A stretch of DNA of 29,257 nucleotides from a virus. Where the stretch lies: positions 1 to 29,257 of the IMG/VR virus record IMGVR_UViG_3300005732_000031, one strand, 5' to 3'. Numbering within the stretch: position 1 is the first letter of the stretch; every line of letters starts with the position of its first letter. Of the stretch, positions 1,201-16,422 are shown piece after piece. The notes beneath the pieces are model-generated. The model had not been told where the DNA came from, searched no databases, and was given only the letters and a program-made list of their open reading frames with translations. The translations under genes were made by a program, and so were the position numbers.

Positions 1201-3030
1201 ATGAGTAAAAGACCTATCCTAACAATCGGCATGCCCACATGTTATGATTTTTCAGGAGCATTGCAATCTGTAATGGCCTTAAAGATGTATCATGACCTAA
1301 ACAATGGAGATCTAGAAATAATCGTCGTAGACAACACTCCAGATGTTGCAGAAAGACGAGCTCTGAGAGATCAGATATATCACAAACCAAACCCCGAAAA
1401 ACCTTCGGACTACAAAATAGCTGAAAATGTAAAATATTTTGAATTTACAGAGGAAAGAGGCCCAGCAGAGACCAAGAATATGGTTTTTGAGAATGCCACA
1501 GGGGAATACGTGATGTGCATTGATAGTCACGTACTTCTTAAAAAAGATTCAGTACAAGAGCTAATCTCTTTTCTTAAGGGATTAAAAGGAGAGGACAGAG
1601 ATCACTTCTACACAGGACCTTTACGACACAACGGAGGGGCTCTCTCAACCCATTGGAATATAAAATGGAGAGGGCAGATGTTAGGGACTTGGGGTGTGGA
1701 TGCTGCCTTGCTAGCTGACTCGTCTCCTAAAGACATCCCAGCAAATGGATGTGGTCTTATTCTATGCAGAAAAGATAGTTGGCTGGGTTTTAATAAAGAC
1801 TTTAACGGATTCGGAGGAGAGGAAGTTTATATCCATGATAAATATAGAAAAGAAGGAAGAAGAGTTCTCCTCCTTCCTAGTTTAGAATGGTGGCATCGTT
1901 TTGGGAAACCAAATACAAAACACTACAACCTGTCTACCTACTCTAAAGTTCGAAACTACGTAATAGGCTATCTTGAACTAGGAAAAGATATACAAGATAT
2001 TTATGACCATTTCGTAAGTCTTGAAAAAGGCAGAGACAACCTAATAGAACATTTAGTAGAGGAACATAGCGAAAAGAAAAGTAGACTAGAAGAACTAACG
2101 CAACAAGAGTTAGAAGTAATACATGCTAGATACAAACTACATAAAAAACAATGGGAATGGTTGATTAAAGACCCAGTAGCTAACATTAAACCAACAAACA
2201 CCCCTAAAGAAGATCTATTTAAAGCAGTTGCAGATTCCAAAGACATATCGGACATGTCAAATCATTTTGGAATTTTTAGAAGATTTGCAGAAGAGAGTAA
2301 AAACTATGCAGAATTAACTAGAAGACCTCATAGCTGGTTACCAGCAGGGGTGTCCGAGATCCCAGTAAAGTCATTTCTTTATAACTCAGCACCTTTACCA
2401 GTAGCTGAGGGTTTTGAAAACGTAAATATAACAACTGTAGACACTTTTGAAAAAGGATTAGAAGCCTTAGGTAACGAAGAGTCCTTGTTCGATATGGTTT
2501 TTCTCAAACTACCACACGAAGCACATGCAGGGTATGCAGTGTTAGATAAAGTAGCAAAGAAAGCAAATAAATTTATCGCTATTCATGATACTAAGTTTAA
2601 CATGAAAGCAGATCTAGGTAAAGCTATAGAGCAGTTTGTAGAGGATACAGAATGGAATGTGGCTTTTCATAGCAATGCACAGTATGGTTTTACTGTTCTA
2701 ACTAAAGATAAAGTAGATAAGAAAATAGTAGCATGGGTTCCCGAGATTGGACCAGGCACCGAGATGAAAAAACTACTTAAAAAAGTAGGAATCGAAGCAA
2801 CTCCAGATTGCTCTTGCAATGCTAGGGCTGTTGATATGAATGTCAGAGGAGAAGAATGGTGTCTGAATAATTTAGAACTAATTGTTAACTGGTTGGAATA
2901 CGAAGCCAAGAGAAGACAAGACAAAAGCTCTAAGCTATTTACTAGAACAGCAGCTAAGCTCCTAGTTAAAACAGCATGTGCTCTATCTTCTAGAAAGAAA
3001 AAGAAACTCAGTAAAAAGAGAAAAAAGTAA
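1201..3030 (+). CDS. Family-2 glycosyltransferase with extra C-terminal domains
   Basis: The N-terminal 240 residues are a GT-A glycosyltransferase fold: an ILTIGMPTC strand, IIVVDNTPD, a DxD-like metal site DSH at residues 108-110, and a GFGGEE segment (203-208) followed by WWHRFG, as in GalNAc-transferase-like members. Residues 250-330 look helical and charged. Residues about 400-500 resemble a Rossmann/methyltransferase-like fold with an IAIHDTK strand. A short module near 515-570 carries CSC and EEWC cysteines, and the last 20 residues are strongly basic. It probably transfers a sugar from a nucleotide sugar to a virion protein or a host surface glycan; acceptor and donor cannot be read. 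The start has AAGGA upstream (1189-1193), and the next gene begins on the base after the stop. Transcription is predicted from the promoter at 1125. Confidence 0.8.
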   Translation: MSKRPILTIGMPTCYDFSGALQSVMALKMYHDLNNGDLEIIVVDNTPDVAERRALRDQIYHKPNPEKPSDYKIAENVKYFEFTEERGPAETKNMVFENATGEYVMCIDSHVLLKKDSVQELISFLKGLKGEDRDHFYTGPLRHNGGALSTHWNIKWRGQMLGTWGVDAALLADSSPKDIPANGCGLILCRKDSWLGFNKDFNGFGGEEVYIHDKYRKEGRRVLLLPSLEWWHRFGKPNTKHYNLSTYSKVRNYVIGYLELGKDIQDIYDHFVSLEKGRDNLIEHLVEEHSEKKSRLEELTQQELEVIHARYKLHKKQWEWLIKDPVANIKPTNTPKEDLFKAVADSKDISDMSNHFGIFRRFAEESKNYAELTRRPHSWLPAGVSEIPVKSFLYNSAPLPVAEGFENVNITTVDTFEKGLEALGNEESLFDMVFLKLPHEAHAGYAVLDKVAKKANKFIAIHDTKFNMKADLGKAIEQFVEDTEWNVAFHSNAQYGFTVLTKDKVDKKIVAWVPEIGPGTEMKKLLKKVGIEATPDCSCNARAVDMNVRGEEWCLNNLELIVNWLEYEAKRRQDKSSKLFTRTAAKLLVKTACALSSRKKKKLSKKRKK

Positions 3031-4272: not shown

Positions 4273-6357
4273 ATGACATGCGATCCTAATTATAACTTAG
4301 ACCATAGATTGATATCTTTTCAATCAAGCCACGTACTAAATGGTGAATACTCTGCGTCCGTATTTCTTATGGACACAACCCGCTTAGATGACCCTACAAA
4401 CGTAGCAGAAGGGGAATCATGCGGCTCTGGGATATCGCCAATACAAGTAACGATAGATGTACAAGAAGGCGCGACTCCCGAAACACCTTTAGCATACGGA
4501 AGCGCCTCTGCAGGAGAAAACACAGATCTAGAAGACTGCCTCACGGATGGTTTGGTGCCTCCTAACTGGGTGTATGGCCTTAAGCAATCTTATGATAAAT
4601 CAATAAACGATGGAACGGCGACTATAGATGTCAGTTCTTTCTTTGAGCACCTAAAAGGAAAGGCTATATCTACTCAGCAATTTAGAGGAGAGTATATTAA
4701 AAACGTATTCGATGTGCTTTTTGCATATTATCTAGGAGTACCTCCTCACCTATTTAATATAGTAGGCTATAGCGGGAATGTATGGGATAACGACACGATA
4801 TTAGGACCTATAGAAGGCGCAGATACTTATGCTGAATTACAAGCATTATGCACTGCAGCTGGCGCTAATATTTTTGTACAGACAGACGGTAAGCTAACTA
4901 TAGAAAAATGGAAAGATGAATCAAGCCCAGTAGAGTATATAATACCTGAAAGAATGACAATATCAGCAGAGCCGGCAGGTTATTCAAAAGGAAGAACAAC
5001 TGTAATTAGAGCAAGAGGGGCTTCTTTGGGGATGATGGACTGCGGAGATCAGGTAATCTCAAATAACGACGACACTGACGGGTCTAGTAAAAAAGGAACA
5101 ATGAAAAAAGTAGCAGTGTCTGGTATTAAGACAAAGTCAGTAAAAATAACTCATAACAATCTTACAGGAACAGAAGACGATATTAGAAATGCACTAGAAA
5201 TATCCCCTACTGTTACTAGGCTAGGTAGTAAGAAGAACATAGGAGCTGGTACTTACTCTGCCAGATATACCCCTAAGAGCTTAGACACATTCTTCGGACC
5301 TAACCCAGCTTCTATAGAGTTTTTAATATACGGAACACGCCAATCAAAACAAGCAGAAGGTTTTTACGGAGATTATTTCGGCCCTAAGTACCACAAAGCA
5401 TATGCTAATCAACGCTCTTTTGAAAATAAAAGACTAGAATGGTTAGCAGGTATGTTCCCTATTCCTTTTTCTTCTTTTGGAAAAGGAGCTTTTGGGACTG
5501 ATATTTTTAATAATAAACAAGATGACCCAGACAATAAAGATGGAAAGTACCAACAAGATCAGCCTACTTTCCAACAATTAGAAGTAGTAGCCACTTCTCC
5601 TTTAGAAGCACTAAGAGGTCCTGAACTAGAAGAAATAGGAAACAAGTATGTTTACACTAAGGACAGGCTTTTCGATTTGGCAGTTAGAAGATTTAAAGAA
5701 ATTAAAATGTCAGAAAATACTTGGAATGTTCAAACAGGATATCTCCCTTGTATTAAACTAAACCAAGTAGTGGAGTTCAAAACACTAGATACCGAAGACG
5801 CTCCTTCTAGGACAATAAAAGGAATAGTAGGCGGGATTAGCCTAGAACATTCGGAGACAGACGAAGGGCCTTCTACTATTATGAATCTCACAATAATGTC
5901 TACCGATTGCCTGGGGAGTGACACTTATACATCCAGCAATCTAGTAAACACAAGATGTGCGGGAGACAACGCCAACACACTGTCCCCATGGGCTACTAGT
6001 GCTTTGGGGTTAGACCAGCAGTCAGGAATGAGCTATAATAACGGTTTTTTATTTACAACACCTGGAACCTCATTAGCATTCTTGGGCTACTCTTTAGATA
6101 CAATAGATACCTCCGCCCAATCATATGACTGGTCCTTTGATTACTATAGAATGCAAGGAACCGCAAACCTATTTCTAACAATGCCTGTTTCCGGTGGGAC
6201 AGGAAGTCAAACTTTAGGAGGATCGGGCACAGCATCGGGGACTATAAACCCGTCAGGAGCTACTAGTTCTGATTTTGTATGGCAACTCATGGCAACAGGC
6301 GCTGCTAACTACTATTCAATACAGAATTTTATAGTAACAAAAACAGTAATAGGATAA
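4273..6357 (+). CDS. Baseplate hub / tail-tip-like structural protein
   Basis: This 694-residue protein has no signal peptide or membrane segment. Several features are typical of tail hub proteins (gp27/gpD/Tal-like): a segment near residues 135-160 with VFDVLFAYYLGVPP, a later DTYAELQALCTAAGANIFVQ segment followed by DGKLTIEKW (about 195-215), and near residues 490-545 a LPCIKLNQVVEF-type beta domain ending in LEHSETDEGPSTIMNLTI. The C-terminal 120 residues are Gly/Ser/Thr-rich (GGSGTASGTINPSG), like a beta-structured adaptor to other tail parts. It is in the same predicted transcript as the two glycosyltransferases, ten bases downstream of the second. The hub assignment is from fold-like patterns only, so an adjacent baseplate role is possible. 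Confidence 0.6.
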   Translation: MTCDPNYNLDHRLISFQSSHVLNGEYSASVFLMDTTRLDDPTNVAEGESCGSGISPIQVTIDVQEGATPETPLAYGSASAGENTDLEDCLTDGLVPPNWVYGLKQSYDKSINDGTATIDVSSFFEHLKGKAISTQQFRGEYIKNVFDVLFAYYLGVPPHLFNIVGYSGNVWDNDTILGPIEGADTYAELQALCTAAGANIFVQTDGKLTIEKWKDESSPVEYIIPERMTISAEPAGYSKGRTTVIRARGASLGMMDCGDQVISNNDDTDGSSKKGTMKKVAVSGIKTKSVKITHNNLTGTEDDIRNALEISPTVTRLGSKKNIGAGTYSARYTPKSLDTFFGPNPASIEFLIYGTRQSKQAEGFYGDYFGPKYHKAYANQRSFENKRLEWLAGMFPIPFSSFGKGAFGTDIFNNKQDDPDNKDGKYQQDQPTFQQLEVVATSPLEALRGPELEEIGNKYVYTKDRLFDLAVRRFKEIKMSENTWNVQTGYLPCIKLNQVVEFKTLDTEDAPSRTIKGIVGGISLEHSETDEGPSTIMNLTIMSTDCLGSDTYTSSNLVNTRCAGDNANTLSPWATSALGLDQQSGMSYNNGFLFTTPGTSLAFLGYSLDTIDTSAQSYDWSFDYYRMQGTANLFLTMPVSGGTGSQTLGGSGTASGTINPSGATSSDFVWQLMATGAANYYSIQNFIVTKTVIG

Positions 6358-6443: not shown

Positions 6444-7250
6444 ATGAAATTATCGAAGTTTATGCTAGAAGAAAAGTTTTTTAAGATCCAAACGCCTATT
6501 AACCCCAATAGAGAGATCGCCCTAACTCCTGAGTTTAAGGATCCGGAGTTCGATAGGTTTGAGATCGGCCAACATACTATCTCCTTTTATATCGGAGATA
6601 ATAAGGCATGCGAACTAGCACACGTAAAAGGCGAGATGGTAGGTAATGATACTAGAGGCGGCGAAACTATACTAAGACCGGCACCAGCTAGTAAGTCTAG
6701 ATTTGATAGATTCTGGAAGCCAGACAGAGTCCAGCCGATCTACGTAGAGCCTGTAGAGGTAGAGGTAGATAGCTCAGGATTAGCCATTATTTCAGACCTA
6801 AAAGAGGCTAAGAAATACAACAATGTTGGTATTAAAAGAAACCCTGACACTCTTTCTGAGATTGATCAGCTGTTCCAGAAGGGGTTTAATAAGGTTCTTT
6901 ATATTCAAAACCCTCCTGCAGATTTTGATTCGTTTGTTTCTCTTATGAGCAATATGTCAGATGCTTTTGAAGATAATCCAAATGTAGGGGCTGTACAAGG
7001 TTACTCTAGATTAAACTCAGAAGACGGAGCAGCTGCTTCGGTAGAAGAGTATGAATGGGATGGTTTTGTTATTACAAAAGCAACATGGTCTAAGATAAAA
7101 GGAAAGGCACTAAAAGCCAAAACAAGAAACTTTACAAGAACTCTAAAAGTAGTTTTCGATGAAAAAAGACTAATAAGATTATCTTTGGATATGAGCCGCA
7201 ACAAGCAGTTTACAAAATCAGACTCTAGAAGGAAAAAGTTTAATGTCTAA
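6444..7250 (+). CDS. Unknown protein, possibly a degenerate glycosyltransferase-like fold
   Basis: I do not recognise this 268-residue protein. Its first 115 residues carry no clear motif. Residues about 130-220 have a layout like the second half of a GT-A domain: VLYIQNPPADFDSF, then DNPNVGAVQGYS, then WDGFVITKATWSKI, but the DxD metal site is absent. The C-terminal 50 residues are basic and end in SRRKKFNV. It stands behind its own ECF-type promoter (6365), so it is probably made late, with virion assembly or modification as the likely setting. Its stop overlaps the next start in an ATGTCTAA junction. Confidence 0.6.
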   Translation: MKLSKFMLEEKFFKIQTPINPNREIALTPEFKDPEFDRFEIGQHTISFYIGDNKACELAHVKGEMVGNDTRGGETILRPAPASKSRFDRFWKPDRVQPIYVEPVEVEVDSSGLAIISDLKEAKKYNNVGIKRNPDTLSEIDQLFQKGFNKVLYIQNPPADFDSFVSLMSNMSDAFEDNPNVGAVQGYSRLNSEDGAAASVEEYEWDGFVITKATWSKIKGKALKAKTRNFTRTLKVVFDEKRLIRLSLDMSRNKQFTKSDSRRKKFNV

Positions 7251-7524
7251 TGTCCAAAACAAGCCAAACGACTATCTTAGGTGTATCCACAAAGGAAAGA
7301 ATACAGGAACAAGATTAGGCGGCTGACGACATAAAGAAAGCGAATTTGAGTGTCAAATTCACGAAACAGCTATTAAGGTTAAGGTTGCTTGTAGTCGCGG
7401 GCAGAGCCTACCTAATGGAATATGTGCCACTTGTCAAGAGATGACATTGCCAGGCACGGAAAAAGCAGAAGCTTATTTAAAGTATTTAAATGAACTAGGA
7501 AAAGCAGATAATACAGGAGAATAA
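7243..7524 (+). CDS. Small Cys-rich zinc-type protein interrupted by an in-frame UGA
   Basis: Starting at ATG 7243 (AAGGA nine bases upstream), the frame reads 27 codons, meets TGA at 7324-7326, and then stays open for 65 more codons to TAA at 7522. Both halves look coding and belong together: CIHKG (C14, H16) before the TGA, and ECQIH (C37, H40), VKVACSRG (C50) and ICATC (C61, C64) after it, the spacing of a small zinc-binding protein. The TGA sits where a further cysteine would fit (GG-stop-RH). No ATG, GTG or TTG restarts the second half before codon 67. An 8-bp perfect hairpin lies 15 bases downstream, and the stop context is UGA-C, which is leaky. It is either a readthrough/recoded gene, a gene broken by a point mutation, or a sequencing error. 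Confidence 0.6.
7342..7360 (+). promoter_or_regulatory. Hairpin downstream of the in-frame UGA
   Basis: GAATTTGA, loop GTG, TCAAATTC: a perfect 8-bp stem that starts 15 bases after the TGA at 7324. Its position resembles stem-loops that stimulate stop readthrough or act as bacterial SECIS elements, but it lacks an obvious SECIS bulge, so this role is inference. Confidence 0.4.
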
Positions 7525-14511: not shown

Positions 14512-16422
14512 ATGAAAATAATGACAAACGAAGTAATAAGCAACCTAATTAAGTCTGGCGTATGCTCTATCGACGCCGAGCACGATCCCAAAGCATTTAT
14601 CCAAGACAGCGATTTTGATCTATGGGGCGCTGGGCTGTCTTACCTAGTAGACGGCAAGATCGTAACGCACTGGCTAACCGAGAGGGATGATATCCAAACA
14701 GCGTTAGATGTAGTCTGCGATAAGGACTTAAAGATGGTATGTCACTTCGGTCAAGCAGATATTACTATGTTTTTAGGAGCGAATTACACATTCAAGAAAG
14801 ACCCAGACGTTAGATGCACGGCTATCGCGTACAACATGCTAAATGAAAACAGATCCCAGTCCGAGTTAGGTTTGAAGGGCGGCTTACTTCCTCGTATTCT
14901 AAAAAGAACAAGAGCGGGTTTTATGGAATGCGCTGCTAACGGCCCCGAGACTGATGTGTTTATTCAGTATGCTAAGGACGACGTATATGACCAGTTAGAG
15001 TTGTACATGATAGCGGAGAAGGCGCTAAAGGAACAAAACCTATATGAGGTCTATAAACTAGTCACTAAAAGTATCGTTCCGTTTTCAGATATGATATATG
15101 AAGGCATGCCTTTCTCCATGGAAAACGCAGAAGAGCTTTACCATAAGTTTACAACCCTAGAAGAAGAACTGGAGCATGCTATTTACGGAGCTATTGGTTA
15201 CATTGACCTAGGGTCTAGCGCCCAGTTAGCCAACCGACTATTTAAGCAACTTAGGTATTCTCATAAAATGGACAAGATGAAGAAGACCAAAACAGGGTAC
15301 TCTACAGGAATTGAGAACCTTAAGATCTTGGCAGAAAAGTACGAAGCAGCAGAGTTGTTGGTTGCTTGGCGTACTTGCTCTAAGATGAAAAGCACGTACA
15401 TCGACCCTTTCTGCGAGCAGGCAGAGAGGTACGGGCGCGTCTTCGATAATTGGTTCCTAACAAGCACCACAGGACGTACCAAGACAAAGAGATTTCAGCT
15501 GATCCCTAACGGATTGGGTAAGAACATCAAACACAATACAACAGTCAAGGCCGCGTTCTCAGATCTAAAACTTAGAAAGATGATCAAAGCAGAAGAAGGA
15601 CACGACCTAGTGGTTGTTGACTTCTCATCCCTAGAGTACCGAACAGCAGCCGTGGCTTCTAACGATCAAAAGCTAATTAACATGTATCAGGCTTACAAAT
15701 GCTCAGCATGTGGGGAGTCTGGAAAATCAAACAAACCTATATACTGCTGCCCTAAGTGCAATGCGGTAGAGGAGTTTAAGCACGGAGAAGATCTCCACTC
15801 TTTTATGAGAGACGTAAGCAACAGGTACGGAGCAGGTATCGACAGAAGCCAAGCCAAAGGCGTTAGTTTCTGTATCGTGTTTGGAGGAGGAGCGTGGAAG
15901 CTAAGTCAGATGTTGGGTCTCGATGAGCGCACTTGTGAGAAGATCATGAGAGCTCTTCTCGACGAATTCTCAGGTATCGAAAAATGGCAAAAGGATATGG
16001 AAAGAAAAACCAAACAAGGAAACAAAGTAGAAACTAGAGACTTCTTTGGGAGACGGCGACAGATCGACATTCAAGAACGTATTGCAAAAGATCCATACGG
16101 TAACGCAAATAACGTAAGAAACAAAGCTAAGAACGAGCTCATTAACTTTGAATGTCAATCACCTGGATGTATTATCTGCCAGATAGCTCTCCGTAAGACC
16201 CGTCAAACCCTAAAAGACAAAGGACTATGGAATATGCCAGACGGTAGCAAAGGAGGGAGAATCATATCCATGGTACACGACGAACTAGTCCTGCACGCTC
16301 CTAGTGAGATCGCAGAACAAGTACTAGAGGTTACCAAAGACTGTATGGGGAACGCGATTACCTGTGCCGTGCCCTTTAACGTAGAAGGCGATATCGCTAA
16401 GACATACGCGGAGGCTAAATAA
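14512..16422 (+). CDS. polA: Family A DNA polymerase with 3'-5' exonuclease and internal zinc ribbon
   Basis: 636 residues. The exonuclease part has D21-A-E23 (SIDAEHD), CHFGQADI near 84, and YAKDD near 160. The polymerase part has motif A DFSSLEYR (D370, E375), motif B K449-xxx-F453-xxx-F457-G, and motif C HDE (589-591). Phe at the position equal to E. coli 762 is the ancestral form reported for virulent phages; the Tyr766-equivalent is Phe. Between motifs A and B there is a CxxC (397/400) and CCPKC (412-416) zinc ribbon, an unusual insert at the fingers base. No 5'-3' nuclease domain is present. The gene follows a terminator; AAGG eight bases before ATG 14512 favours this start over ATG 14521. 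It copies the phage genome with the helicase, primase and SSB. Confidence 0.93.
   Translation: MKIMTNEVISNLIKSGVCSIDAEHDPKAFIQDSDFDLWGAGLSYLVDGKIVTHWLTERDDIQTALDVVCDKDLKMVCHFGQADITMFLGANYTFKKDPDVRCTAIAYNMLNENRSQSELGLKGGLLPRILKRTRAGFMECAANGPETDVFIQYAKDDVYDQLELYMIAEKALKEQNLYEVYKLVTKSIVPFSDMIYEGMPFSMENAEELYHKFTTLEEELEHAIYGAIGYIDLGSSAQLANRLFKQLRYSHKMDKMKKTKTGYSTGIENLKILAEKYEAAELLVAWRTCSKMKSTYIDPFCEQAERYGRVFDNWFLTSTTGRTKTKRFQLIPNGLGKNIKHNTTVKAAFSDLKLRKMIKAEEGHDLVVVDFSSLEYRTAAVASNDQKLINMYQAYKCSACGESGKSNKPIYCCPKCNAVEEFKHGEDLHSFMRDVSNRYGAGIDRSQAKGVSFCIVFGGGAWKLSQMLGLDERTCEKIMRALLDEFSGIEKWQKDMERKTKQGNKVETRDFFGRRRQIDIQERIAKDPYGNANNVRNKAKNELINFECQSPGCIICQIALRKTRQTLKDKGLWNMPDGSKGGRIISMVHDELVLHAPSEIAEQVLEVTKDCMGNAITCAVPFNVEGDIAKTYAEAK

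Follow-up and report, generated by a model that had tools for sequence, protein, structure and literature searches.

A conserved in-frame UGA in a Cys-rich, glycosyltransferase-associated gene of two diverged tailed phages suggests site-specific recoding, possibly to selenocysteine

The window analyzed here, a linear virus record of 29 kb taken at its full length (29,257 nt), is a contig from an uncultured tailed phage. Its genes encode GT2 glycosyltransferases, a large probable tail protein, DnaC-like and DnaB-like proteins, PhoH, a primase, a polymerase, a RecA-like protein and a sigma factor. No close relative of this phage was found in the collections searched, from which records very near the window may have been left out. 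The features surrounding the gene under study, a small Cys/His-rich open reading frame interrupted by a TGA codon, are listed in Table 1. As a separate observation, the polymerase gene (14512-16422) is of the PolA type, with the motif DFSSLEYR, and carries after motif A a Cys-rich insertion (CSACGESGKSNKPIYCCPKCNA) that is missing from the phage polymerases compared.

Table 1. Features of the UGA gene and its neighborhood in the window
Feature	Position	Strand	Remarks
GT2 glycosyltransferase, FGGEE.YIH type	1201..3030	+	Members of its family carry or neighbor the Cys domain
Large probable tail protein	4273..6357	+	34% identical to its L243 counterpart; gauge of divergence between the two phages
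Upstream gene	6444..7250	+	Homologue directly precedes the UGA gene in L243 too (phmmer E 2e-10)
Cys/His-rich ORF	7243..7524	+	93 codons plus stop; single in-frame TGA; CxH...CxxH...CxxC small protein, GT-associated
First knuckle, C14-x-H16	7282..7290	+	Kept across the Cys-rich family
In-frame TGA (UGA-C)	7324..7326	+	Codon 28 of the ORF; context GGC GGC TGA CGN, as in the relative L243
Perfect 8-bp hairpin	7342..7360	+	GAATTTGA-GTG-TCAAATTC; loop GUG; over the codons for FECQIH; SECIS-like geometry, weak energy
C37-x-x-H40 (F-x-C-x-x-H motif)	7351..7362	+	Kept across the Cys-rich family
Last knuckle, C61-x-x-C64	7423..7434	+	Kept across the Cys-rich family

The ORF translates as MSNVQNKPNDYLRCIHKGKNTGTRLGG up to the TGA and as RHKESEFECQIHETAIKVKVACSRGQSLPNGICATCQEM...GE from there to its own stop codon, the TGA being the sole interruption. 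An earlier note, made from the sequence alone, had claimed that the frame stays open on either side of this TGA and that the stop stands in a UGA-C context. Both statements hold: a single Cys/His-rich frame is split by the TGA alone, and a C lies directly 3' of it. The same note had put the first restart codon near the end of the second half; the earliest ATG, GTG or TTG in fact lies 38 codons past the TGA, out of 65, which is just past the middle, and only the lack of any restart over those 38 codons stands. The start of the frame overlaps the upstream gene by 8 nt and its end is 3 nt short of the next ATG, a tight fit between neighbors as expected for a real gene in a packed operon. Both strands of the window were scanned for frames with at least 20 codons from a start, one stop and at least 40 further open codons, with no early restart and little overlap with longer ORFs, and this gene was the sole match. 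An AlphaFold model of the Cys-rich protein reached a pLDDT of only 42 and yielded no usable structure.

Stop codon usage in the window is strongly skewed. The 37 called genes end in TAA (29), TAG (7) or TGA (1), and TGA terminates none of the 22 ORFs of at least 150 aa, versus 45% in compared contigs with similar GC. A genome-wide code reassignment was considered and ruled out, as the called genes contain no further in-frame TGA and one of them ends in TGA.

A single syntenic relative was found, through a GT2 motif scan. This relative, L243, is part of the 52.6-kb contig IMGVR_UViG_3300049846_001015 and has in common with the window a GT2 gene, the tail protein, a homologue of the gene at 6444-7250, and DnaC-like and DnaB-like genes. 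Immediately after that homologue comes L243:6779-7018(-), which reads MSCKKGKNVKLANGFTEAELELCVHRGKPTGDKVGGG, an in-frame TGA, and then RGKGVVFECAVHGLCAIKKYTSTQKQQPCATCTNYEKRQEQ up to its stop. The TGA is in the same place as in the window, within GGC GGC TGA CGG (GGC GGC TGA CGA in the window), and the second half of the gene is intact, with no ATG, GTG or TTG at all past the TGA. When the UGA is treated as X, the two proteins align with a score of 87, while the best of the shuffles scored 54 (0/3000). Aligned separately, the N-terminal halves were equaled by 0/3000 shuffles and the C-terminal halves by 7/3000. The interrupted-ORF scan of the L243 contig returned four matches, this homologue among them. 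TGA as a stop, strongly avoided in the window, is yet the most used one in this related phage.

Directly after the L243 UGA gene comes a UGA-free Cys paralogue, L243:6547-6809(-) (CTHRGKQCGTKRTSSCSKC...; SCSKC), which starts inside the last part of the UGA gene, the two overlapping by 23 nt. Its start codon has no clear ribosome-binding site, and ribosomes may have to read through the UGA in order to translate it.

Other searches added no further relative. Scanning with the tail protein found none beyond L243, and scans with the DnaB-like and polymerase proteins found no close one. As a single-protein query against IMG/VR, GTDB contigs, phages and plasmids, the Cys ORF returned nothing, a few matches at E ~5 being judged spurious; scans with a DNA motif for CIHKG..TG and with a two-knuckle pattern gave chance matches only. 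The window and L243 genes are the only two UGA-containing members known from these searches.

A profile search of the collected contigs and of Planctomycetota genomes defined a family with the pattern CxHRG...CxxC...F/YxCxxHxxC...CxxC, with members in phages and Planctomycetes. Both halves of the window and L243 proteins are homologous to this family, and the features of GT2-associated Cys-rich small proteins are met: CxH, F/YxCxxH and CxxC in order, and association with a GT2 gene. A profile built from UGA-free Cys homologues only scored 18.1 for the window protein and 42.1 for that of L243, in each case above all of ∼5000 shuffles. The domain is part of a long ORF in each of L325, L326 and L335 (Planctomycetota genomes); in L331-L334 and L338 the ORF is short. 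The Planctomycetota genomes contain Cys homologues but no credible UGA member, their stop-containing matches being spurious. L139(-) has the Cys-rich domain as a C-terminal fusion to a GT2 glycosyltransferase that belongs to the family of the one at 1201-3030 in the window.

The UGA-free homologues run uninterrupted through the site of the UGA. Neither UGA protein has a Cys in the second knuckle region, and the UGA is the only codon there able to supply one. Homologues carry a CxxC around this site, and with the UGA masked as X the exact Cys column varies with gap placement; in one homologue (L325) the second knuckle is absent altogether. The suggestion in the earlier note that a Cys is expected here, to be checked by aligning homologues, is thus upheld at the level of the motif, with the UGA at the second CxxC knuckle, and not at the level of an exact column.

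Judged by comparison, ORF 7243-7524 is one homologous unit across the UGA, and the UGA occupies the same place in two highly diverged phages. Site-specific recoding of this codon, of whatever kind, is very probable, an assessment that rests on comparison and on no experiment. The programmed read-through or recoding proposed from the sequence is therefore supported by a syntenic relative with a TGA in the same place and homology on both sides, and the outcome that would have refuted it, random stops in relatives as in a decayed gene, was not met. Two tests for a selenoprotein gene are passed, namely homologous coding sequence on both sides of the UGA and conservation of the UGA in two distinct sequences; a published criterion for new selenoproteins is a UGA shared by two sequences, together with the existence of Cys homologues (PMC1088965). 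The long genes of L243 use UGA as their commonest stop (24/47), and a further stop does not tend to follow it closely, so the decoding of the UGA gene must be signal-specific.

Selenocysteine (Sec) insertion is a known bacterial route for decoding a marked UGA. The reading that we favor, by a slight lean only, is that ORF 7243-7524 is a functional phage gene for a small, zinc-knuckle-type, glycosyltransferase-linked protein whose UGA is recoded, most likely as Sec. Taken by itself, the identity of the residue as Sec is an even call; it is inferred, with no protein data and no host Sec machinery seen. Host SelB would deliver Sec to the UGA, helped by the hairpin just downstream, and Sec would replace a Cys ligand in the second metal knuckle. 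Sec fits because of the UGA codon itself, the Cys-type homologues and the hairpins of bacterial SECIS geometry. What counts against it is that Sec would have an unusual role, presumably that of a structural metal ligand. The earlier note had listed Cys, Trp or Sec as the inserted residue; Trp is not favored, and the choice between Sec and Cys remains unresolved.

The hairpin, previously claimed as an 8-bp stem 15 bases past the TGA, is present and perfect. Its loop is 23 nt from the UGA. No other perfect 8-bp stem in the 29 kb has a 3-nt loop, and loops of 3-10 nt occur on just six distinct stems of this kind, this one included. Its energy is -4.8 kcal/mol (free folding of the 40-50 nt past the UGA gives -6.6 to -6.9), and the 58-nt segment that contains it has no unusual stability relative to shuffles (z = -1.05). 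The bacterial SECIS model given in a 2026 review, in which phages and viruses go unmentioned, has a loop of 3-9 nt with G in the first two positions, a stem of 4-16 bp, a UGA-to-loop distance of 16-37 nt, and an energy of -7.5 kcal/mol or better (PMC13188914). The window hairpin meets the geometric constraints and misses the energy limit, while the L243 hairpin (7-bp stem, loop GGUCU, spacing 36 nt, -8.2 kcal/mol) meets all four. Its GGUCU loop is that of E. coli fdhF. The share of all TGA triplets that have a stem of at least 7 bp downstream in SECIS geometry is 2.2% in the window, for energies of -4 kcal/mol or better, and 5.7% in L243, for energies of -6 kcal/mol or better. The two hairpins are unlike in sequence, position and spacing; hence they give no evidence of a conserved structure, and their SECIS fit supports Sec without proving it. 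An Rfam search returned no SECIS match, and no tRNA-Sec at gathering score in the window. A role of the window hairpin in read-through remains unproven, the hairpin of the relative being different and at another distance.

The main competing explanation, unlikely on balance and still a real possibility, is that the phage itself encodes a suppressor tRNA, with anticodon UCA, that reads the UGA as Cys or some other standard amino acid. Such a tRNA of 69 nt is present in the relative (L329:15019-15087(-), equivalent to 35019-35087 of contig IMGVR_UViG_3300049846_001015), in an intergenic gap; it shares the strand of the only other UGA gene, which lies 0.9 kb upstream of it. It is the only UCA tRNA among the eight that ARAGORN detected in 3.1 Mb of examined sequence. 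Its T-arm and acceptor are fully paired, the D-arm is minimal, there is no long variable arm, and the discriminator is U73; the acceptor has GGC...GCC ends and reaches 8 bp if a terminal G-U pair is counted. U73 and the GGC/GCC ends resemble tRNA-Cys identity elements, and the anticodons UCA and GCA differ at position 34 alone. Insertion of Cys would suit the motif, and tRNA-Cys variants with a UCA anticodon that can be charged with Cys have been described (PMC7609411). A suppressor would also explain why UGA stops are avoided in the window, and this avoidance, together with the UCA tRNA near the L243 gene, fits suppression better than SelB-dependent insertion.

Several observations weigh against this suppressor. 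About half of the L243 genes end in UGA without back-up stops, and a general suppressor would disturb them. The L243 tRNA matches Rfam tRNA-Sec at 25 bits (gathering 47), with no better tRNA match, and this score and the tiny D-arm mean that it may be decayed. No tRNA and no UCA-arm structure was found in the window, even under relaxed rules, in what is only a 29-kb fragment; the tRNA gene of the window phage would have to sit on a part of the genome outside the contig. Phages that reassign UGA usually have many in-frame UGAs, and here there is one. The test for a phage opal suppressor, UGA as sense in many genes, fails, with one such gene in the window and UGA a normal stop in L243. The points on both sides could be reconciled by a Cys tRNA that depends on SelB, which is speculation.

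It is improbable that the UGA-C is merely leaky, with stimulated read-through by a near-cognate host tRNA yielding a minority of full-length product in which the inserted residue is irrelevant. The appeal of this reading lies in the UGA-C context and downstream stem-loops of both genes, and in the homologue L325, which manages without the second knuckle. However, the 27- and 37-residue products that end at the UGA hold the first knuckle only, and it is unlikely that they serve as the main functional form; the position of the UGA at the family CxxC suggests that the identity of the residue matters.

A nonsense mutation, a decaying gene or an assembly error at a former Cys codon is very improbable. 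One base change would suffice, and no reads are available for the window, a metagenomic contig. Nevertheless, random nonsense or decay is very unlikely because the same TGA and intact halves occur in L243, a relative so diverged that the tail proteins share only 34% identity, and a base-calling error is unlikely because the same TGA recurs in an independent contig, so that this explanation is strongly disfavored. Two products (a short N-terminal peptide and a protein started past the UGA) or a frameshift at GGC-TGA can scarcely be credited, as nothing positive besides the stop itself speaks for them, 38 codons pass in the window before any ATG, GTG or TTG and in L243 none occurs at all, the second half is homologous in the zero frame in both, and intact homologues cross the site.

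Site-specific UGA recoding of a single gene is barely documented in tailed phages and was not found described in the literature searched, where the UGA cases met were genome-wide code switches. If Sec is the inserted residue, phages carry selenoproteins and rely on host SelB; if Cys is inserted by the phage's own tRNA, these phages have a small recoding system of a new kind. In both cases, gene callers miss or split such Cys-rich UGA genes.

Set beside known systems, the gene probably represents either a phage selenoprotein family or a UGA=Cys family with a phage-borne minimal UCA tRNA, in which a residue of a GT-associated metal knuckle is recoded under an otherwise standard code. The GT2-associated Cys-rich domains (L139, L331-L335, L338) resemble the window gene in CxHRG...F/YxCxxH...CxxC and in lying beside or fused to a GT2, and differ in having Cys codons in the second knuckle region and no UGA. 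Like bacterial selenoproteins with a bSECIS, such as E. coli FdhF and those of the Sargasso Sea selenoproteome (PMC1088965), the gene has a conserved in-frame UGA, Cys homologues and a stem-loop just downstream, inside the coding region. Unlike them, it belongs to a phage, its small metal-knuckle-type product has no redox motif, and the window hairpin is too weak. The L243 tRNA shares with the selC*-type tRNA-Cys(UCA) (PMC7609411) its anticodon, U73 and an 8-bp acceptor with G-U, and a Cys site is plausible, but it is a phage-encoded tRNA of 69 nt with a minimal D-arm; it fails the selC*-type test for want of the long variable arm, and no cysS* or selB* was seen nearby. The crAss-like phages with tRNA-SUP-TCA (PMC12386605) offer a parallel to the UCA tRNA of L243 and to the avoidance of UGA stops in the window, whereas here a single UGA in one gene, rather than many, is concerned and UGA is still the main stop of L243.
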